In this document: piece by piece, positions 4,506-36,559 of the stretch
Numbering within the stretch: the stretch's first letter is position 1
Layout of the letters: the number at the start of each line of letters is the position of its first letter
From: Citrobacter amalonaticus
GTDB taxonomy: Bacteria > Pseudomonadota > Gammaproteobacteria > Enterobacterales > Enterobacteriaceae
DNA: 42,860 nucleotides
Reading direction: 5' to 3'
NCBI RefSeq assembly: GCF_018323885.1
Contig: NZ_AP024588.1
Location: 1 to 42,860 of the forward strand
Translations under genes and position numbers: made by a program
Notes under the pieces: model-generated
The model's input: the letters and a program-made list of their open reading frames with translations, nothing else
Told to the model about the DNA's origin: nothing
The model's database searches: none

Positions 4506-7220
4506 TTAAGCTACATTGCCGGGGTAGGAGGCATTGTCGTATTGATAGAAGGAATCACGATATTCTTTTGCTGTTACCTGACATGTTCCGTCAGATTGTG
4601 GTGCTATCTCTGATATTAACGCGCTGTATCCAACTCGGGATGATTCGCAGAATATCAGGCGCGGCGGTTCAATTGCTGGATCATTCATTATGATGTTGCT
4701 GAATTCAGGTTGCTCAGGAACAGATAATTCATAATCTCCTGCTTTCGTAACAGTCATTAAACCAGAAGCAGACCCATCCTGATAACGAATCAATGCGCGT
4801 GGGTTATTGAATGTCCAATCAAGTGGTTCTGACAAAGTAAATGTAGTCACGCCGCCACTTGTACTCATATCATCAATCAACGCGCTTATTGTTTTACTAC
4901 CAGGAATATCATCGGTAAATACAATCCTGTCTCCAACGTTGTAACAGAGAGCATCCATCTCAGTAGTGGTGGTATGAGTCATTCTCTGTTGTTTGTACTT
5001 CATCAGACGTCTCATACCTATCTGATAGGCTCTGTCCTGGTCAAGAACACCATCGAGTGTGTAGTCCTCAATTTTTACAGGCGTAGGATTATCTGATGTT
5101 CGGCACTGTACCGTTTCTTCAGCCCAGGTTGTCCCATTAATATAGGTTACATCAACACCATCATAGTCATCTACTGAAGGTGCAATGAAAGCTGTCTGTA
5201 AAGGGTCAATCATTTCCTGTGGGCTAATAACACCTGTCCACGTTTTCACTCCTTCCCTTGCTACAGATGCAAGAGCATCACTAAGAAGGAAATAGCTTTT
5301 ACCTGCGTTAGTTACCTTCTGTAACATTTCAAGAGCAGATACAGAATCGGTAGTTGCGTAGTCAAAGAATTCGCTGTTTGGCGTCCAGTACGCAGACTCC
5401 AGATAATCTATTGCGTCATGGTCCATTAACAGACCAAGTTCATCTCCAATGTGATACAACGCACCAGAAATGCTTCGTGATACGCCAGTGTCATATATGC
5501 GCGTAGCAACAACGTTTACTCGACGATCTGATTGAGCTGCCAACTTACCACCAGTTTCAACAGTGACAGCCATCGTAGTCACTCCACTATAAGATGACGG
5601 TCTTACTAATAAACGCCCTCTCAGTGACTGCCAGTACATCTGGTCCCTGCTGTTATCTTGTCCCTGCTCATTAGTTCGCCTTGCACGAACCTCAACTAAA
5701 GATGGAGTTGATAAGGTGATGCGCTCAGTAAATCCAAGACCGTTAATGTTTCGCTGGTTGTATGTTCCTGTTCTGCTGGTCCATCCAGAACCGGAACCAT
5801 ATGCTCTGTACTGGATCTCCCATGCTACCGTCCTGTCTCTCTTATGCCCTTTTTTGTCATAACCACATATGCCATTAGGAAAGAAGAAATTAATTTCAAA
5901 CATGTCAATTTTTTCGTTTTCAGGACATGCTAAAAATGGCCCCATCCATGTGGAGTTTTCATTCATCCCGTTAGCTTCGAAATCAAGAACAGTGCGAGGA
6001 GAAAATCCAGGCCAGGTTGGGTCAACGACTCCATTAACTAAGCGCTGCAAAGTTACTGTGTTGGTATCAACATCCAGAATTTTGTATTCGCTACCTGCAT
6101 GAGATAGAGAAAGGCGTATATACCCCTCTGGAATTCCTGTAAAGGGAGTCCCTGTTGCACTGTCGTATGCAAGCTTTATAGACGCTGTTACGACATCGCC
6201 ACCAGGTGGTTCTGAATGTGGCGTGTACTGAGCTATGAATAATTGATAATCAATACTGTTGTACCAAAGTGTAACTGGCATTCCAACGTATGGAGCAATC
6301 TCTGAAAGTACATCACTGGTAATTCTGCTGTACGCACCATCGTTAGTTACGACATAAGAATCAGGAACAATAAGCTCTACAATGGCACCTACCACCCATG
6401 AGTCTGGCAGTGTATTTGTTGTAGTACCATCATCGTTAGTTATGCCGTTAAATGTTACTGTTGCTCCAGAAACAGTAAGAGACTGAGCAACTACATCATC
6501 TGAATCTGGAGCGGTTTGAGCCATATCAAGACCAGAACCGGATGCTGTTCCTCCAACCTCTGTGGAGTTGAACCAGTTTTCTGTTCTTCTGTCTCCGCTG
6601 ACATTAGCGCCTGGTTCATATTTGGTATAGCTAAACCCTTCCTCAAGAGAGGTAGATGGCGTTGAACCAACTCTGATATCCCCATCACCAAATGAGAATC
6701 TTCCTCTTCCGAGAACAACAAACATTTCCACTGTCATAACAGTCGGATCAGATGGTGAGAATCTGGCAACCGGCTGAACCGCGTAATCAGGGTAAATACG
6801 ACTGCGACCGAATAGCTCACGAATAGGATCGCCGAGCTTAGCGTTGTTAGCTTTAGCTGGATTTACGTCAAGCGGGTTGCCTGTACCTGATGAATACCCG
6901 CCAAGATCGCCAACTCCGGGAGCGAAGAAAAGAGCATAAGCAACTGATGCTACTGAAACCGCAACAGCAATCCAGGCCAAAGCCACAGCACCATAAGGAA
7001 CTGGATAGATGCGTACATCGCTATCTGATTTTATGGCGTATTCAAACCATGCCTGTGGTGGAATATTCTCACCGTCAACATCAATAGCAATAGGATGCTT
7101 CATGTCTGGCTTGTAGCCATTAACATTTTTAGCAAGCCACTGATGAATGGTTAGAGAATCATGCTCATGCGTTTCAAGAGGTTCACCAGGCAGGCGTGAT
7201 GGATAGATTCGGATTGTCAC
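4506..7220 (-). CDS. Tail tip / host-specificity protein, gpJ-like
   Basis: 904 residues. It begins with a short ubiquitin-like segment (to about residue 75), then a strongly hydrophobic stretch around residues 78-105 (AVALAWIAVAVSVASVAYAL) and the G/N-rich linker seen in gpJ-type central tail proteins, followed by the long baseplate-hub body. It would sit at the distal tail end, crowning the tape measure and carrying the receptor-binding parts; here the separate tailspike likely supplies specificity. It overlaps the NlpC/P60 gene by 4 bases (ATGA-type coupling). Gene order NlpC/P60 then J-like is that of lambda K-I-J without an evident I. Confidence 0.85.
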   Translation of the reverse strand: MTIRIYPSRLPGEPLETHEHDSLTIHQWLAKNVNGYKPDMKHPIAIDVDGENIPPQAWFEYAIKSDSDVRIYPVPYGAVALAWIAVAVSVASVAYALFFAPGVGDLGGYSSGTGNPLDVNPAKANNAKLGDPIRELFGRSRIYPDYAVQPVARFSPSDPTVMTVEMFVVLGRGRFSFGDGDIRVGSTPSTSLEEGFSYTKYEPGANVSGDRRTENWFNSTEVGGTASGSGLDMAQTAPDSDDVVAQSLTVSGATVTFNGITNDDGTTTNTLPDSWVVGAIVELIVPDSYVVTNDGAYSRITSDVLSEIAPYVGMPVTLWYNSIDYQLFIAQYTPHSEPPGGDVVTASIKLAYDSATGTPFTGIPEGYIRLSLSHAGSEYKILDVDTNTVTLQRLVNGVVDPTWPGFSPRTVLDFEANGMNENSTWMGPFLACPENEKIDMFEINFFFPNGICGYDKKGHKRDRTVAWEIQYRAYGSGSGWTSRTGTYNQRNINGLGFTERITLSTPSLVEVRARRTNEQGQDNSRDQMYWQSLRGRLLVRPSSYSGVTTMAVTVETGGKLAAQSDRRVNVVATRIYDTGVSRSISGALYHIGDELGLLMDHDAIDYLESAYWTPNSEFFDYATTDSVSALEMLQKVTNAGKSYFLLSDALASVAREGVKTWTGVISPQEMIDPLQTAFIAPSVDDYDGVDVTYINGTTWAEETVQCRTSDNPTPVKIEDYTLDGVLDQDRAYQIGMRRLMKYKQQRMTHTTTTEMDALCYNVGDRIVFTDDIPGSKTISALIDDMSTSGGVTTFTLSEPLDWTFNNPRALIRYQDGSASGLMTVTKAGDYELSVPEQPEFSNIIMNDPAIEPPRLIFCESSRVGYSALISEIAPQSDGTCQVTAKEYRDSFYQYDNASYPGNVA

Positions 7221-21151: not shown

Positions 21152-21737
21152 GTAACCTCCATGCTCTTCGGCGTTCTGTCCGAGGCTGGTTGTCTCTGGC
21201 TGGCTCTACTGGTTGTCCGTCTGCATGGTCAACGAGTGAGTAACATGGATAGACAACAGGACCACCGTAAGCATCACCGACTGCATAGTCTGCTGCTTTG
21301 CTGTGATTCCATTTATCCAGCACTCGCTTGATGTGCTGCTGCGGTACGCTGTAGCAGACGCCATGTATGAGCCGAGGAAGAGTGATGTAGTCTGCTCTTG
21401 CCTTATCTGCTGCCATTAGCTTTGTAGCTATGTCGAGTTGATACTGAGGCGGACGCCCAGTACCGAGATAGAAAGAAACCAGAGCATCAGGGAAGCGAGC
21501 TATCCATTCAGCCGCCTTGTCAGCGAACCCGTCCACGGGTAACGCATCGTCTTCTACGATGACTACTCGACATGATTGCTCGGCTGCCCACTCAATGGCT
21601 CGACGGTGATTCCAGTTAGCGCCGTGATTACCTTCATCAATGAGCAAATGTGCATCGAGTTCATGTGCGAGGAACACAGCCGCTGCGAATCGTTCATGAT
21701 GGGCAACAACAACAAACTTTACTTGTGCTTCCACCAT
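21144..21737 (-). CDS. Glycosyltransferase-like protein (GT25-like)
   Basis: 197 residues. Contains RVVIVEDDALPVDGF (about 58-72), the acidic EDD motif of GT25-type sugar transferases, after NHRRAIEWA, a donor-binding-like segment. It has no signal peptide or membrane segment. It overlaps the larger glycosyltransferase by 19 bases and the HNH gene by 8 bases, so it is in the late operon. It might sugar a phage protein or DNA; O-antigen modification is less likely because no flippase or membrane partner is present. I cannot name the substrate. Confidence 0.65.
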   Translation of the reverse strand: MVEAQVKFVVVAHHERFAAAVFLAHELDAHLLIDEGNHGANWNHRRAIEWAAEQSCRVVIVEDDALPVDGFADKAAEWIARFPDALVSFYLGTGRPPQYQLDIATKLMAADKARADYITLPRLIHGVCYSVPQQHIKRVLDKWNHSKAADYAVGDAYGGPVVYPCYSLVDHADGQPVEPARDNQPRTERRRAWRLHV

Positions 21738-23179
21738 GCCAACTCCTTGCCGATGCCATCAGACTTAAATATCGTGTGGATAAGCGGTCCGGTAATTACC
21801 TTATCGCCAAATGACTTAGCCACAATGCCGAACGCACCCATATCAACTTTCGTTTCAGGGGCTTTCTCAATCTTCCAGAATCGATGGCTTTCAATCAGGT
21901 AATGCTGGCGAATGATTCGATGAGCGAACTCCATAACGTCTTCACGGCTACCACCTAACAAACCTGCATTGAGCAGTGGTTCATTACGATGTTGTTCAAT
22001 GAAGTCGCTGTACGCCTTTCCGTGATGGTTTGCCTTCATCCACTGGTCATCGTAGGTCTTATGCTCAGAGCCAACGTATATTTTGCCAGGCTCCATTTCT
22101 GCCCATGGTTCTCTTAACATCTCGACATCGGTTCCATCGGTACACCAGACGAAACCATATTCAGGGTGTTCGCGCAGGTGCTGATAGATATGCAGCCAAC
22201 GGGCAAAGTAAGGACTCATTGAAACACATGGCACCTTAACCAATTGGGCACCATCAGGTGAATCATTCAACTCATCTGCAAGGACTACTGCTTTAGCTCC
22301 TGATATTGATTTAGCCCACAACTGAAGCATGTCAGGCGAGGATATCATCTTCGTGCCGCGTTGAGGGTCTGGCTGGCTGGTCAGTAGAGTAGTGATTACA
22401 ACGTTATTCTGTTTGCGATATGGTGCATATCCTGCATAGCCACTGTCTCGACGCTCGTTGTAGATTGTCACATTACGCTTTACCAGTGCTTCACGGTCAG
22501 GGCGTGGAATTGACCTATTTCCTTCTTCGTATTCATCCATTGAGTGAATCAGCTTTTCAGAGCCAACCACATCAGCAAACGCCCATGTCGACAAACCAGC
22601 ATTGTAGATACGAAGAGCTAAGTCAGGATGCTCGTACATACCACGACCGTATACCGGATCAAAGCCGCCAACCTTCTCAATGGCGCTGCGGTGGTAATAA
22701 AGCATTACACCGCGCTGACCTGTGTATGCAACATGCTTATCATCGCGATAAAGCACGGTCATATCGTTAATCTTTCGTGGGCCAGCGAGGTCAAGAAACT
22801 GATAAGCCAAATGGGGCTCTGGTGACTCGATGTAGGGCAGATGCCAATTATCAGCTATTGGCCATGCATCATCGTCCCACAAAAACAGATATTCACATCC
22901 AGCATCAATTAGAACTTCAAGGCTTGCATTCTTGGATGCCACAATCCCTAACGAAATTTCATGCCTGATCAGTTTGATGTTATCTGGAGCAATAGCAGGT
23001 GGATTCGAACCATCATCAACAACCACGACAAAAGCATTACTCTGTAGATGCTTCATGTGCTGCTCAATGGCGCGTTTCAGTACATCAGGCCGATTGTGAG
23101 TGGTTATGGCTATACCAATTCTGCTACTCACCTTATCTTCTGGTACGTATTTCACACCATCAATTTCAACATTCATCAT
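21719..23179 (-). CDS. Two-domain glycosyltransferase, GT2-type N-terminus
   Basis: 486 residues. The N-terminal half is a GT-A fold of family 2: IGIAITTHNRPDVL (about 21-34), VVVVDDGSNPPA (about 51-62), LFLWDDDAWP with the DxD-like metal site (about 97-106), and a GGFDPVYGRG acceptor-side motif near 172. The C-terminal half (from about 255) is a second, different domain with FVWCTDGTDVEML. No membrane segment. It lies between lysis genes and the packaging genes and is co-transcribed with them, which suggests late activity on a phage component rather than lysogenic conversion. Start Met1 or Met2 are both possible. Confidence 0.75.
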   Translation of the reverse strand: MMNVEIDGVKYVPEDKVSSRIGIAITTHNRPDVLKRAIEQHMKHLQSNAFVVVVDDGSNPPAIAPDNIKLIRHEISLGIVASKNASLEVLIDAGCEYLFLWDDDAWPIADNWHLPYIESPEPHLAYQFLDLAGPRKINDMTVLYRDDKHVAYTGQRGVMLYYHRSAIEKVGGFDPVYGRGMYEHPDLALRIYNAGLSTWAFADVVGSEKLIHSMDEYEEGNRSIPRPDREALVKRNVTIYNERRDSGYAGYAPYRKQNNVVITTLLTSQPDPQRGTKMISSPDMLQLWAKSISGAKAVVLADELNDSPDGAQLVKVPCVSMSPYFARWLHIYQHLREHPEYGFVWCTDGTDVEMLREPWAEMEPGKIYVGSEHKTYDDQWMKANHHGKAYSDFIEQHRNEPLLNAGLLGGSREDVMEFAHRIIRQHYLIESHRFWKIEKAPETKVDMGAFGIVAKSFGDKVITGPLIHTIFKSDGIGKELAWWKHK

Positions 23180-23185
23180 GGTGCC

Positions 23186-23470
23186 TCAACGTCTAACAGC
23201 AGTATCGCGCATGATTTTCCCAGAGTTGCCTTCAACCGCTTCTTTAATTTTATTTTTGAGAAGTTCTGGATCGCCACTCAAATTAATTGCAACTTCAGGA
23301 TAATGGGATAGTGTCGTCTTGCCAGTGATTTGAGTAGTTACTGACAAAGTAGGAAGACCTTCTCCTACTGCATGGTTAAAACTTATCGAGGTTAAGCCAT
23401 CAACCAAGACGCCATCCACAATGAGGTGTACGTATTTTCCTTCCTCATATTTAATTTCAAGGTTTTTCAT
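23186..23470 (-). CDS. Small unknown protein behind a C4-like leader
   Basis: 94 residues starting MKNLEIKYEEGKYVHLIVDGV, mixed strand and helix, with no membrane segment. I do not recognise a family. Its ribosome site (AAAAGG) is the last bases of the 120-bp repeat at 23479-23598, the same leader that precedes the broken antirepressor gene, so the two genes likely share an RNA-based control. It lies 6 bases before the glycosyltransferase start. Confidence 0.65.
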   Translation of the reverse strand: MKNLEIKYEEGKYVHLIVDGVLVDGLTSISFNHAVGEGLPTLSVTTQITGKTTLSHYPEVAINLSGDPELLKNKIKEAVEGNSGKIMRDTAVRR

Positions 23471-23478
23471 GTGCGTTT

Positions 23479-23598
23479 CCTTTTAGAAAGTGAGCCTGTC
23501 TCACAGAAAAGCCGCCCGAGAGAGGTCGCCACCTATAACGGCATTTCTCAGGCTCGCTTACTGAAAGGCTCTCGTTGTAAATTGCGCGTGAGATGCGC
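23479..23598 (-). repeat. 120-bp direct repeat, copy 1: C4-like antisense RNA leader
   Basis: Identical over all 120 bases to 25715-25834. On the minus strand it can fold as an outer stem GAGCCTG/CAGGCTC, an inner stem GCCG/CGGC and a small hairpin AGGT-GGCG-ACCT, with CGAGAG near its 5' end complementary to CTCTCG in a loop. This cloverleaf and the word GGTGGCGACCTCTCTCGGG resemble the C4 antisense RNA of P1/P7 and many prophages. It ends in AAAAGG, the ribosome site of the gene at 23186-23470. That it acts as a C4 RNA is inference from structure and context. Confidence 0.6.
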
Positions 23599-23604
23599 GG
23601 TAAC

Positions 23605-23630
23605 AAAAAAAGCCCAACCGGAGTCAGGCT
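23605..23630 (-). terminator. Terminator after the lysis genes
   Basis: On the minus strand AGCC and GGCT close a stem-loop followed by TTTTTTTG. It lies between the Rz stop (23653) and the C4-like repeat, so transcripts reaching the glycosyltransferase and packaging genes must pass it. Confidence 0.6.
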
Positions 23631-23652
23631 GTTCTGTTTAGTTGATGACGAA

Positions 23653-24114
23653 TCACTTTAGGCACTGCGTCCTGATATATTCCTGCAGATAGCCAACCTG
23701 TTTCGTCACTGTGACGATTCGCTCTCTGAGGGTGAAATAATCCCGTTCAGCGGAGTCATTAAGTCTGGGGCTGGAAGCATCGCCCATGCTGCCGGTGCTG
23801 GTCGCTCCGTTCGCTGGACATTTGGCGTTGATGCGCAACCCACACTTGCCAGTGCGAATACAGTGCTGAAGATCATCAAGCTGCTTTTTCGCATCTGCAA
23901 GTTCTCCGGTGTATTTGGCATCCAGTGCAGCGGCATCACGCTGGCGAGTCTGCATGTCTTTGATGGTGTCGTTAGCCAGGCTGAGACTCTTGGTGGCTTT
24001 GTCGCGCTGGTCTTTGTAGGTGATGGCGTTGTCGCGGTAGTGATTAACAGCCCAACCCAGCGACACTATGATGCAGACAACCACAGCGATGATGATTGCA
24101 GTTACCCTGCTCAT
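23653..24114 (-). CDS. Rz: Rz-like inner-membrane spanin subunit
   Basis: 153 residues from the ATG at 24114, giving [20 protein letters not shown], a signal-anchor very close to lambda Rz, followed by [11 protein letters not shown] and a long coiled coil, then [19 protein letters not shown] as in lambda and P22. Rz spans the periplasm with Rz1 to fuse the membranes in the last step of lysis. Rz1 is encoded inside it in another frame. A longer start at 24132 is possible but lacks the family N-terminus. Confidence 0.93.
23706..23894 (-). CDS. Rz1: Rz1-like outer-membrane lipoprotein (spanin)
   Basis: 62 residues in a different frame within Rz, as in lambda. [20 protein letters not shown] is a lipoprotein signal ending in a lipobox (ASVGC); the mature part is Pro-rich (RPAPAAW) and ends with the shared [11 protein letters not shown]. 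An internal Met7 is an alternative start. Confidence 0.9.
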
Positions 24115-24599
24115 TTCTGACTCCAGGTACAAACCTCATATTCAACGTCTCGCCGGTTCATTAGCCCTTTCCACTTCTTGCCACCTGCATATACCCAGCG
24201 CTTAAGCTCAGAGCATGCTCCAGCATAATCTTTCGCATTGAGCTTCTTCAGTAGAGTGGAGTTGATGGTTGCGGTAGCGCCGACGTTGTAAGCAAAGCTG
24301 TATATTGCTGCTCTCTGAGTTTCAGTGGTCGGTACTTTGATATGCGGATCAACCTGAGTTGCAATCCGTTTTAAATCTTTCCTGGTTAGAGCATCGCATT
24401 CTTTGTCGGTATATCGCTTATCCTGAACAATGTCAGATCCAGTGTGACCATCACAAACAGTCAGCACACCGACGACATCGCGATAAGGGACATACTCCCT
24501 TCCCTCTAATCCATCCTTTCCTGACAACATGACTGTAGCGATAGCAATGGCACCACCACCTAAAGTGGCAGCGATTTTATTTCGCAAGGTGCTGTTCAT
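24111..24599 (-). CDS. R: SAR endolysin (T4-type lysozyme)
   Basis: 162 residues. Residues 12-25 ([14 protein letters not shown]) are a weakly hydrophobic Gly/Ala-rich signal-arrest-release segment. The lysozyme triad fits E-x8-D-x5-T: Glu32, Asp41, Thr47. It resembles the phage 21 and P22-group enzymes. It is tethered to the membrane until the pinholin depolarises it, then cuts peptidoglycan. It overlaps the holin gene by 1 base and Rz by 4 bases. Confidence 0.93.
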
Positions 24600-24871
24600 C
24601 AGATTTCCTTGGGTGCTTTCTGACCGAGTTCGGCGATAACCGTGGCTGTAGCTGATGGATTTCTGGAGTCTGTTTTATTCAAAATGTCCTGCAGTATCTT
24701 CGTTCGCTTCATTTGCTCACGCTTGTTGAGCCGGTAAGTCAGAACGCCGAGGATAATGCTGAACGCGACGCCAATGATGAAGCCCCAGTCCTGTAGAGAA
24801 AGGCTGGCAAAGAAAGCCGCAAGACCAGCGCTACCGTATGAAGCATTGCTGTATCTTTCGTCCATCTTCAT
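24599..24871 (-). CDS. Class II (pinholin-type) holin with a dual start
   Basis: 90 residues from ATG 24871. The start reads MKMDERYSNASYGSAG, with a second ATG at 24865, copying the phage 21 S dual-start design where the longer form with an extra Lys is the antiholin. Two membrane segments are visible: about residues 13-27 (Gly/Ala/Ser-rich, SAR-like TM1) and 31-48 (FIIGVAFSIILGVLTY). It is paired with a SAR endolysin, as pinholins are. A hairpin covers the ribosome site. Confidence 0.85.
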   Translation of the reverse strand: MKMDERYSNASYGSAGLAAFFASLSLQDWGFIIGVAFSIILGVLTYRLNKREQMKRTKILQDILNKTDSRNPSATATVIAELGQKAPKEI

Positions 24872-24879
24872 TTTCTCAC

Positions 24880-24894
24880 CCCCTGATTTCGGGG
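24880..24894 (-). promoter_or_regulatory. Hairpin over the holin ribosome site (sdi-like)
   Basis: On the minus strand CCCC-GAAATCA-GGGG is a 4-bp GC stem whose 3' arm is the AGGGGG Shine-Dalgarno sequence of the holin, 9 bases before the first ATG. In lambda and phage 21 a comparable structure sets the ratio of the two holin starts. Equivalence here is inference. Confidence 0.5.
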
Positions 24895-25040
24895 ATCTGT
24901 TCAAATTAGGAATTAACGTGGTTGTTGTGTGAACAAATCCAGGATACGTTTATTAGTAACGTGGTTTGTTCGTGACTAAAGGCATGAGCAAATCAGGCAG
25001 GAGGCTGTTAGCGCAGTCTCTTGCCACCCATCTTCACGAA

Positions 25041-25066
25041 ACCCGCCATTGAGCGGGTTTTCTTTT
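25041..25066 (+). terminator. Plus-strand terminator upstream of the holin
   Basis: ACCCGC-CATTGA-GCGGGT followed by TTCTTTT on the plus strand. It lies in the 255-base gap between the holin and the broken antirepressor gene and faces against the late operon. It may stop antisense transcription; on the minus strand the tail TTTCG is poor. Confidence 0.6.
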
Positions 25067-25159
25067 GGTCATTATCAAGCGCCCAGATATAGACGCTTTG
25101 TAATGAAGAGCCGTTGTGAAAGTGACTCTCGATTATTTCCAGGTCAGGTCGTTAATCTC

Positions 25160-25705
25160 TCATGCAGCTTTACCTTCCATTAAAGCAACCATGTCAGGAT
25201 CCATCTGGTCTATAATCCGCTCACGCGCTGCATTTAGAAGTTGTTTACGCCCACCAACACCCCATTTATTCATTACCTTGGCGCAGGAGCTTACTTCTTT
25301 GGTCTCCATATCGATAAGCAGGTCAAGGCGATTAAGACGATTCATATTTCCAAGTCCATTCAGGACCGCTTCGCGAAATGTTTCTTATACGCGAATTTCA
25401 AATTCCGGCTTAATCCATGCTGCGTAACGTATGGCAAGTAATTCTGACGCCCAAACACCAGGCTCATCGCCACCTCTGAAAACTTTAAGTGCTTGATTAT
25501 TTTCCAGGGGACAATTTTGTCCTTTGCCAACAAGTGCGATTACAAATCGCTTAACTGAACCATTCCTAATGAATTTGCTAGGCTTTTGAGATTCAGTTGC
25601 TTCGCCCTTTAATACGGCTGCAGCATGCAGATCGTTAAGGTTGTAACGGCCTTCAGCGTCAACTCTAACAGATACACCGTTTACTATTACTGTTGGGTAT
25701 TGCAT
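25160..25705 (-). pseudogene. KilA-N antirepressor gene broken by one in-frame stop
   Basis: One continuous frame encodes a KilA-N-type protein. The first part (codons 1-106: MQYPTVIVNGVSVRVDAEG, YNLNDLHAAA, GGDEPGVWASELLAIRYAAW, KPEFEIRV) is the KilA-N DNA-binding domain. At 25385-25387 a TAA stands where related proteins have Tyr before ETFR; after it the same frame continues with ETFREAVLNGLGNM and RLDLLIDME through to ...EGKAA at 25160. One base change (TAT or TAC to TAA) explains the split. The truncated 106-residue domain could still bind DNA. The gene lies just behind a C4-like leader, as phage antirepressors do. Confidence 0.85.
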
Positions 25706-25714
25706 AGCGATTTA

Positions 25715-25834
25715 CCTTTTAGAAAGTGAGCCTGTCTCACAGAAAAGCCGCCCGAGAGAGGTCGCCACCTATAACGGCATTTCTCAGGCTCGCTTACTGA
25801 AAGGCTCTCGTTGTAAATTGCGCGTGAGATGCGC
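25715..25834 (-). repeat. 120-bp direct repeat, copy 2: C4-like antisense RNA leader
   Basis: Exact copy of 23479-23598, located directly before the KilA-N gene and supplying its AAAAGG ribosome site. In P1, P7 and Gifsy-type prophages a C4 RNA is made upstream of the antirepressor and blocks its translation; this placement fits that model better than copy 1 does. It lies in the late leader, downstream of the late promoter and terminator. Confidence 0.65.
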
Positions 25835-25945
25835 AGAAGATGTGAAAACGCCCTTATCTCCGTAACCACGAAAGTTAGAGGGTATCTGTATGTGTTCTGG
25901 TGTTTGGTGATGAGGGCGCTTTCAGAAATGTCGTGCCAGAAATGC

Positions 25946-25972
25946 AAAAGCCCCGAGCTATTAACTCAGGGC
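25946..25972 (-). terminator. Late terminator tR'-like, downstream of the late promoter
   Basis: On the minus strand GCCCTGAG-TTAATAG-CTCGGGGC followed by TTTTGC. It lies about 80-100 bases past the late promoter, as in lambda, 21 and 82, where Q antitermination is needed to pass it. The leader before it has no ORF with a ribosome site. Confidence 0.8.
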
Positions 25973-26111: not shown

Positions 26112-26723
26112 TTACGCTGATTGTGGAAATTCATTCTCAATTTCGCGCCTCATCGCATAAAAGATTTCTGAATCTAGCACATTCTCGCACCAGACAACTC
26201 TCCGTCTGCATGACTGGATATCCATTCCTGTGACTGCATTCATCATCCTGGCGATATCTTGCGTGCAATTGCGATTGCAATATCGCTTAATAGCTACATC
26301 GCGGACGGGGCTTTCACGGTGAAACGTCTTGACCATCACGCGTTCAACGAAAGCAGCATCATCGGATTCTTTGGCGAGACCGATGATGTTGCTGAACGAT
26401 GATTGAGGGATGACCAGTTCGCGAGCTTTCTTGTATAGCGCATCTCCACGCAGTCCATCTTCTTCGTACAGGCGCATGACGACAGATTCAATCTGCTTGG
26501 CCTTGTCATCACTCCACTGGCTACGAATCATCAGCCGACCGATAACGTTGATTGCACCACCTGGAGAATCATCACCGGCGTTAACCTTGCCCCATACCTG
26601 AAGCATGTAGTGAACCCATGCTCTCTGTCGTGTGCTGATGGTTTTCTTTGGATGTTTCCATACTCGACGGAAATGCGCATCGTCGATGAAGTTGACCATG
26701 CTGAATATAGGAGTGTGTTTCAC
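26112..26723 (-). CDS. Q: Q-like late antiterminator (DUF1133 type)
   Basis: 203 residues, starting MKHTPIFSMVNFIDDAHFRR, with the region STRQRAWVHYMLQVWG and a C-terminal Cys/Arg-rich segment (CNRNCTQDIARMMNAVTG). The pattern fits DUF1133 phage proteins that take the place of Q. It is the last gene of the nin cluster, directly upstream of the late promoter and terminator. Assignment rests mainly on position and remembered family pattern. Confidence 0.75.
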   Translation of the reverse strand: MKHTPIFSMVNFIDDAHFRRVWKHPKKTISTRQRAWVHYMLQVWGKVNAGDDSPGGAINVIGRLMIRSQWSDDKAKQIESVVMRLYEEDGLRGDALYKKARELVIPQSSFSNIIGLAKESDDAAFVERVMVKTFHRESPVRDVAIKRYCNRNCTQDIARMMNAVTGMDIQSCRRRVVWCENVLDSEIFYAMRREIENEFPQSA

Positions 26724-35683: not shown

Positions 35684-36559
35684 ATGACCAAAGAAATTGT
35701 TACTTTCAAGGGATTCAATAAAGAACTCAAGTGCCGTGACTTCCAGTTTGAAATTGGCAAAACCTTTCACCATGAAGGAAAGGTTGAGGCTTGCGGTTCT
35801 GGTTTTCATGCCTGTGAATGCCCTTTCGATGTGTTTGGATATTACTCGCCGGCAGATAGTCGTTTTGCCGAAACCATTTCATTCGGTGTAACTGATCGCG
35901 AAGAAGATGGTGATACGAAAATAGCCAGCGCCAGCATCACTATTAAAGCTGAACTGACACTTCCTCAATTCATTCATCGTGGTATCGAATGGATATGGAG
36001 CAAGATTGATAAGTCACTTGAGCAGCAGATCATGACTGGCGACTGGTCAGCGGCAACCAACACTGGCAACCGGTCAGCGGCAACCAACACTGGCGACTGG
36101 TCAGCGGCAACCAACACTGGCGACTGGTCAGCGGCAACCAACACTGGCTACCAGTCAGCGGCAACCAACACTGGCGACTGGTCAGCGGCAACCAACACTG
36201 GCGACTGGTCAGCGGCAACCAACACTGGCAACCGGTCAGCGGCAACCAACACTGGCAACCGGTCAGCGGCAACCAACACTGGCAACCGGTCAGCGGCAAC
36301 CAACACTGGCGACTGGTCAGCGGCAACCAACACTGGCGACTGGTCAGAGGCAGAGGTGTCAGGATCACAATCCGTAGCTGTATCACTCGGCATTGAAGGT
36401 AAAGCGAGAGCATCTGAAAACGGTGCAATCGTGCTCTGCTATCGAGATGAAGATGGAGAGTTAATTCATATCCGGTCCAGCAAGGTTGGCGAGAATGGAA
36501 TTAAACCTGATACCTGGTATCAACTTGATGAAGATGGTGAGTTTGTAGAGGTCGCGTAA
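35684..36559 (+). CDS. Repeat-rich solenoid-like protein in the left operon
   Basis: 291 residues. Residues 1-115 form an N-terminal domain (MTKEIVTFKGFNKELKCRDF, ACGSGFHACECPFDVFGYY, RFAETISFG) that I remember from phage proteins of the DUF7666 type. Residues 119-226 are 12 tandem nine-residue units, eleven of them G-[D/N/Y]-[W/R/Q]-S-A-A-T-N-T, then a degenerate one; the C-terminus has GSQSVAVSLG and a further acidic tail. Such short repeats with Gly and small residues suggest a beta-roll or solenoid like YadA-type heads. The gene is flanked by near-identical terminators. Function unknown. Confidence 0.78.
   Translation: MTKEIVTFKGFNKELKCRDFQFEIGKTFHHEGKVEACGSGFHACECPFDVFGYYSPADSRFAETISFGVTDREEDGDTKIASASITIKAELTLPQFIHRGIEWIWSKIDKSLEQQIMTGDWSAATNTGNRSAATNTGDWSAATNTGDWSAATNTGYQSAATNTGDWSAATNTGDWSAATNTGNRSAATNTGNRSAATNTGNRSAATNTGDWSAATNTGDWSEAEVSGSQSVAVSLGIEGKARASENGAIVLCYRDEDGELIHIRSSKVGENGIKPDTWYQLDEDGEFVEVA
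36038..36361 (+). repeat. Twelve 27-bp tandem repeats within the solenoid-like gene
   Basis: Units start GGC and read GGC-[GACTGG / AACCGG / TACCAG]-TCAGCGGCAACCAACACT; the order of the variable six bases is D W, N R, D W, D W, Y Q, D W, D W, N R, N R, N R, D W, D W. Only the last unit is degraded elsewhere. The constant part is identical at the DNA level, a sign of recent expansion or gene conversion. Confidence 0.95.

Follow-up and report, generated by a model that had tools for sequence, protein, structure and literature searches.

Why should a 42,860-bp stretch of DNA from Citrobacter amalonaticus (contig NZ_AP024588.1, the whole of which we call the window) carry the same 120-nt sequence on both sides of its lysis genes, and what might this sequence do for the genes behind it? 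Pairwise alignment and gene annotation bear out the original prediction, made from the sequence alone, that two identical 120-bp copies lie 2.2 kb apart with the lysis genes between them: positions 23479-23598 and 25715-25834 agree at every nucleotide, with starts 2236 bp apart, and each copy ends, as had also been claimed, in the ribosome-binding site (RBS) of a different gene, namely in the Shine-Dalgarno sequences (SD) of a 94-residue open reading frame (ORF) and of a KilA-N ORF. A first repeat search returned two direct copies of 123 nt at 99%, the 60 nt adjoining the copies are unrelated (ungapped identity of 22% upstream and 28% downstream), and the two copies were the sole matches in a whole-genome search at E <= 0.001. 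The repeat coincides exactly with one RNA element: it starts at the first G of a small hairpin that we call P1 and stops at the GG of the SD, and each copy is a 5' leader because the sense strand of both is the minus strand. We propose that the repeat acts in cis as a translational leader, probably with two states, on genes reached by antiterminated late transcription, and we put the probability of this reading at roughly two in three. Most likely, the leader masks in cis the SD of moron genes in late operons, and a second fold is available to it. The structured leader itself is real and widespread, and it has no family in Rfam 15. Its two copies and their proposed segments, scored where indicated with R1, a covariance model built from 36 elements that include both copies, are as follows:

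25715-25834, minus strand: RNA leader copy 2, before the KilA-N gene; perfect copy, R1 146.6 bits at 25690-25844
23479-23598, minus strand: RNA leader copy 1, before the 94-residue ORF; perfect copy, R1 143.4 bits at 23455-23608
25820-25834 (copy 1: 23584-23598), minus strand: P1 hairpin, GCGC-ATCTCAC-GCGC; 99.3% of alignment cells paired, changes on both sides in 2 of 4 pairs
25824-25829 (copy 1: 23588-23593), minus strand: L1, the loop of P1, UCUCAC; complementary to K, with covariation
25805-25810 (copy 1: 23569-23574), minus strand: A, CGAGAG; pairs with A', with covariation
25775-25804 (copy 1: 23539-23568), minus strand: 5' arm of the long hairpin (Ba, Bb, Bc)
25759-25770 (copy 1: 23523-23534), minus strand: P2a apical hairpin (helix 6); 87.4% paired, changes on both sides in 3 of 4 pairs
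25753-25758 (copy 1: 23517-23522), minus strand: A', CUCUCG; pairs with A
25735-25740 (copy 1: 23499-23504), minus strand: bulge K, GUGAGA; complementary to L1
25715-25750 (copy 1: 23479-23514), minus strand: 3' arm of the long hairpin, with bulge K, ending in the SD (AAAAGG)

Comparison among relatives strongly supports P1, the pseudoknot between the P1 loop and the bulge, A-A' and the SD-pairing long hairpin, all of which are backed by compensatory changes. In an alignment of 36 elements made from sequence only (A1), the 48 pairs of the proposed structure showed changes on both sides in 22 pairs vs. 11.7 +/- 1.8 in shuffles, 86.9% vs. 82.4% of paired cells, and a covariation score of 0.170 vs. 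0.105; on five measures, none of 500 shuffles reached the observed value of any. When the partners were slid, pairing fell to 38-51%, in a comparison that favours the proposed structure over its slid versions in that it was drawn on one sequence of A1. RNAalifold, unaided, recovered P1 and the long hairpin with compensatory changes in 11 of 23 pairs, and the folding z score was -3.4 for the leader and -3.9 for a distant one.

The loop and the bulge change together, as UCUCAC/GUGAGA, UCGCA/UGCGA, UUCACC/GGUGAA, UUCACAC/GUGUGAA, UUCGUAC/GUACGAA, UUAGCAC/GUGCUAA and others. Their mean match was 5.26 in 27 distinct pairs vs. 3.59 +/- 0.20 with mixed partners (maximum of 2000 mixes, 4.37), and in a wider set of 86 distinct pairs the score was 14.6 vs. 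11.4 +/- 0.23 (maximum of 300 mixes, 12.2). A and A' vary likewise (CGAGAG/CUCUCG, CCCGAG/CUCGGG, CACAGAA/UUCUGUG, CCAAGAG/CUCUUGG), scoring 17.1 in 36 distinct pairs vs. 12.0 +/- 0.49 when mixed (maximum of 1000 mixes, 13.75). The segment finders dropped 7 of the 219 rows of our first set for L1-K and 6 of 219 for A-A', the latter including the diverged copies of phi80 and SP-016. The SD pairs with CCUU of the 5' arm, and here too both strands change, as CCUUU/AAAGG and CCUUA/UAAGG, with column pair 53-141 being UA in 22 elements, AU in 13 and otherwise in one. Both prediction and covariation thus point to an SD held in a stable hairpin, and this covarying structure lies directly before start codons, which were found behind 211 of the 219 elements (208 ATG, 3 GTG). 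A short upstream ORF within the leader was considered and set aside, since AUG-CCG-UUA-UAG of the window is missing, by eye, from many relatives.

How might such a structure act? We surmise that the leader works in cis on translation of the gene behind it, with no evident promoter of its own, and that it would be transcribed by read-through, probably from a Q-antiterminated late operon. The RNA would fold into P1, the loop-bulge pseudoknot and the long hairpin whose 5' arm pairs with the SD, leaving translation off or low, whereas formation of A-A' would pull the anti-SD strand away and expose the SD, which we take to be the on state. By coordinates, A directly adjoins the base of the long hairpin and A' is placed close to the tip, so that A-A' should be incompatible with the complete long hairpin. 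Taken separately, the helices have energies of about -5.1 (SD helix), -7.3 (A-A') and -6.6 kcal/mol (L1-K).

Predicted occlusion of the SD speaks for this reading, and several points weigh against it. The SD had a mean predicted unpaired probability of 0.17 in 90 leader genes vs. 0.41 in 185 control ORFs (p = 4e-13), but these controls were mechanical ORFs of at least 100 residues from the same loci, chosen for a perfect SD match, and this occlusion figure, like the minimum free energy (MFE) values, ignores pseudoknots. A nested fold with A-A' enforced reaches -32.3 vs. -48.5 kcal/mol for the MFE, i.e. 16 kcal/mol worse, and the on state would therefore rely on the pseudoknot and on kinetic effects outside the energy model; the exclusion between A-A' and the SD helix is itself argued from geometry. 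Shuffling related sequences overstates covariation, and many rows of A1 are related. Only 69% of A1 cells are paired for L1-K, 78% for Bc and 81% for A-A', probably in part due to misplacement in the alignment, and a few elements lack a P1 and L1 recognisable by eye (L315, the second of L147, and L321; L numbers denote our related loci).

With regard to transcription, we examined 95 elements aligned by R1, some of them near-duplicates and five without an ORF of 50 residues behind them. A terminator-like site precedes 68 of these in a stretch reaching to 70 nt before the first base of the model, with its stem ending 7-26 nt before P1 in 61 of the 68, compared with 24 of 270 and 21 of 281 control stretches of equal length. 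Promoter-like sites, scanned for as sigma-70 type only, were not enriched (3 of 95 elements vs. 9.3 expected), and a promoter in or before the leader was rejected on this ground. The same count bears on a timing device like that of T4, in which read-through transcripts would be off and a promoter within the 5' arm would give shorter transcripts with a free SD. I-TevI, segB and mobE follow this logic according to passages of PMC2988022, and HNH genes also bear our leader, but the scan gives no sign of such an internal promoter, although promoters other than sigma-70 would escape it, and P1 and L1-K, which would lie upstream of an internal start, are conserved; we consider this device quite improbable.

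The T-even hairpins nevertheless provide the closest printed mechanism that we found. In the passages of PMC2988022, RBS-sequestering mRNA hairpins are described for T-even I-TevI, segB, soc and e and for Aeh1 mobE, i.e. for homing endonucleases and some late genes, with a late promoter freeing the SD of the homing endonucleases. In both cases, the SD of a late or mobile gene is paired in a hairpin of a long phage mRNA; in contrast to these hairpins, the leader described here has no indicated promoter and belongs to a conserved pseudoknotted family common to unrelated genes.

Does the leader belong to an RNA family already known from phages? The original prediction had likened it to a C4 antisense-RNA leader; an RNA leader ending in the RBS of two different genes, one of antirepressor type, has held up and the C4 membership has not. 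No C4 match (RF01695) above the gathering score was obtained in the window or in its own genome, a scan in which the 14 control genomes also lacked a match, and no c4-a1b1 target region (RF03163) was found upstream in the window; the same tool detected both in phage P1 (68.8 and 51 bits, respectively), on which R1 was silent. More generally, no Rfam 15 family passed threshold on the leader in the window or in 30 related loci, and two mir-627 matches (E of 1.3 and 6.5) were taken as chance. Like C4 and c4-a1b1 in the annotation of phage P1, the leader is a leader-borne RNA beside antirepressor genes with pairing near the RBS, but covariance matches are absent either way and the pairing here is apparently in cis.

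Two other antirepressor controls were compared, IsrK and sar, and rejected as families for the leader because the Rfam scans gave neither on it; for isrK this covers the window and the 30 loci, without a positive control. Passages of PMC4825925 describe IsrK of Gifsy-1 as a prophage leader with alternative structures before an antirepressor operon, much as here, except that IsrK works via orf45 and a trans-acting short form. Passages of PMC2629481 have the sar RNA of P22 (RF00262) controlling the antirepressor in a late-operon moron, again a similar setting, but in locus L166 sar stands at 5994-6058 on the minus strand, apart from the leader at 7030-7171. With sar (47.9 bits) about 1 kb from the leader, both antirepressor controls may occur in one phage region. 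We found no published description of the leader in the literature searched, which includes few subscription papers: a term search within PMC8632094, PMC11109978 and PMC6429828 did not return it, nor is it described in the passages of PMC4825925, PMC2629481 and PMC2988022.

If not C4 itself, could the two copies still regulate each other in the manner of C4, with a processed RNA from one leader binding the RBS of the other gene and repressing both, such that one regulator would serve two targets as originally supposed? The 5' arm is indeed antisense to the arm that bears the SD, and the identity of the window's copies makes pairing in trans equal to pairing in cis, so that trans pairing may occur there. 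Loci with diverged copies separate the two: among the 32 arms of 16 such pairs, the 5' arm paired better with its own 3' arm in 28 and with that of the other copy in four. Trans pairing as a general mode was rejected on this count. The compensatory changes within copies and the absence of C4 or c4-a1b1 matches argue in the same direction, as does the finding that, in our first set, a second sense copy of at least 40 bits is present in only five of 214 loci (the window, L005, L008, L134 and L162), in stretches so short that second copies may have been missed. We regard an antisense action in trans as rather improbable and retain the cis-acting leader.

Where, then, does the identical pair come from? 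R1 found two copies in 17 of 78 sources searched, several of which had been picked because they hold two copies, and two of which (L283 and L284) are near-identical and not independent. In the 16 other two-copy loci, identity between the copies is 57-80%, and every copy resembles an element of some other locus more than it does its partner. The two window copies are each other's nearest relatives: over the compared core they share 98%, and the nearest among the other 93 elements share 95-96% with them; the best listed matches in E. coli reach 96.8%. The linker common to the two copies was searched for in viral contigs and had no exact match there. Since the window pair is the sole near-identical one among the 17 two-copy loci, the comparison suggests that one leader was recently duplicated in this phage lineage. 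Complete identity had been ascribed to recent copying or strong constraint; covariation shows the structure to be strongly constrained, and for this pair copying is likely as well. Deletion of the lysis genes by recombination between the copies is possible in principle but was not observed.

Two leaders around lysis genes recur in other loci, with diverged copies. The genes between leaders were viewed, some in part, in five of the 16 other loci (L003, L134, L162, L287 and L288): L288 has the order leader, gene, holin, lysozyme, Rz, leader, and L162 has a lysozyme-like gene between its leaders. Actinobacillus phage pPE4 has the order leader, TerB-like gene, two holins, endolysin, leader, KilA-N. 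In L283 (2470-2939) and L284 (2320-2789), two different leaders lie 160 nt apart with no ORF of 50 residues following the first, an arrangement that looks like the insertion of a new leader-gene unit after an existing leader. In phi80 (L005, 784-2514) and SP-016 (L008, 3017-5144), two leaders surround an opposite-strand gene and a small gene; in phi80 the opposite-strand gene is PHI80_63, and the leaders stand around rha, PHI80_63 and PHI80_64. By number, the latter two are taiEcA and atiEcA of PMC11364771, in passages of which atiEcA lies in a Q-controlled late operon and TaiEcA dropped on Q expression; the passages on atiEcA/TaiEcA do not mention the leader.

What the leaders precede was addressed with 86 downstream proteins, comprising 84 of the 90 behind the 95 elements (six were left out as near-duplicates, cut or very short) and two further ones. 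Matches were to KilA-N (31), Rha (21), ORF11CD3 (15), Bro-N and P63C (6 each), HNH_3 (5), P22_AR_N and tail-tip (4 each), TerB (3), ANT, AP2 and DUF533 (2 each), and AntA, T5orf172, MUG113, Packaging_FI and zf-His_Me_endon (1 each); none of these 17 families is a lysis family. Of 805 pairs of leaders at least 95% identical (among 113 leader-gene combinations), 602 have proteins lacking detectable similarity, and leaders whose compared cores are identical stand before KilA-N in HK620 and before Rha in phi80. These findings would fit a DNA-level recombination cassette, in which the sequence would be retained to provide homology for the exchange of phage modules, with RNA structure being secondary. 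Because the compensatory changes span the whole element, however, selection appears to act at the RNA level, with swapping as a possible by-product, and we hold a purely DNA-level role to be very improbable.

The leader family is broadly distributed. A blastn search with 251 bases around copy 2 matched 72 phage records, including phi80, HK620, HK639, CUS-3, epsilon34 and Actinobacillus phage pPE4, and among the 60 places listed many touch rha, KilA-N or antirepressor annotations and others hypothetical genes. In E. coli, 635 of 5426 genomes have a match, at no more than two places per genome. Pattern scans of viral contigs gave 61 stretches for one variant and at least 120 for another, and a scan of species genomes gave 24, including Xenorhabdus, Photorhabdus, Pantoea, Rahnella, Morganella and Providencia. 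With R1, matches were obtained in 11 of 59 related genomes, in 119 of 392 genomes of the window's family (61 of 154 genera), in 25 of 394 of its order (14 in its own family, 9 in one other family and 1 each in two more) and, in a class-level sample of 369, in the window's own genome only; these sets overlap, each includes the own genome, and their stricter filters may have missed weak members. A leader of this class, followed by a rha gene and presumably derived from phi80, is also present in the laboratory strains DH5alpha and DH10B, and probing and reporter work could therefore proceed without phage isolation.

A leader of one class on so many genes raises the question of what it might sense. 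A ligand, or a host or phage factor, could bind the pseudoknotted core and set the state of the SD, like a riboswitch; this would be a special case of the cis-acting leader and no alternative to it. Such a sensor would fit the compact core with its pseudoknot and invariant residues, the competition between two helices and the use of one leader class on unrelated genes, but no ligand or factor is indicated and the genes share no metabolic theme, and we think it possible though doubtful. Only tentatively do we suggest that the leaders form an uncatalogued class of pseudoknotted regulatory RNA, a portable translational switch across Enterobacterales phages whose folds answer one shared cue, be it a ligand, a factor or antitermination. 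If true, unrelated antirepressor, homing-type and other moron genes would obtain a common trigger within one late transcript, with the lysis genes between the leaders staying outside that control. Genes of antirepressor type (Rha, KilA-N, Bro-N, Ant) abound in phages, and an RNA leader shared among them and open to testing would offer a common handle on those in late operons.

The remaining features around the two leaders in the window are as follows:

25950-25972, minus strand: terminator-like site, 115 nt before copy 2, downstream of a Q-like gene (26112-26723)
25385-25705, minus strand: KilA-N gene, interrupted after 106 codons; Pfam PF04383, 2e-14
23653-24904, minus strand: lysis cassette between the leaders (holin, lysozyme, Rz); lysozyme and Rz by Pfam, holin by PHROGs
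23611-23630, minus strand: terminator-like site, 12 nt before copy 1
23186-23470, minus strand: 94-residue ORF of unassigned function; phrog_10282, 1e-15 (a PHROG of unknown function); 6 bp before the glycosyltransferase gene
21719-23179, minus strand: glycosyltransferase gene, downstream of the 94-residue ORF; phrog_1579, 1e-231, and Pfam Glycos_transf_2

Besides the lysis genes, the KilA-N gene also lies between the copies. The holin was recognized by its PHROG match (2.5e-32), Pfam holins being below cut-off only. For the 94-residue ORF there was no Pfam match, PDB matches reached only E of about 0.05, and PHROGs matched were of unknown function only. The KilA-N frame (25163-25705, minus strand) has an in-frame stop after residue 106, with a remainder still alignable to relatives: of five relatives tried, four (175-176 residues) align in one frame to residue 163-175, which shows the gene to be interrupted in the window; no match was obtained with the fifth. 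The window is the whole contig of its assembly and may represent either an unplaced prophage or a phage genome outside the chromosome. Pairs of tRNA genes occur in leader-bearing stretches elsewhere (L288, 1676-1827; L283, 4730-4884), and in the window 27-bp tandem repeats at 35981-36433 lie inside the frame of an ORF at 35684-36559 on the plus strand.

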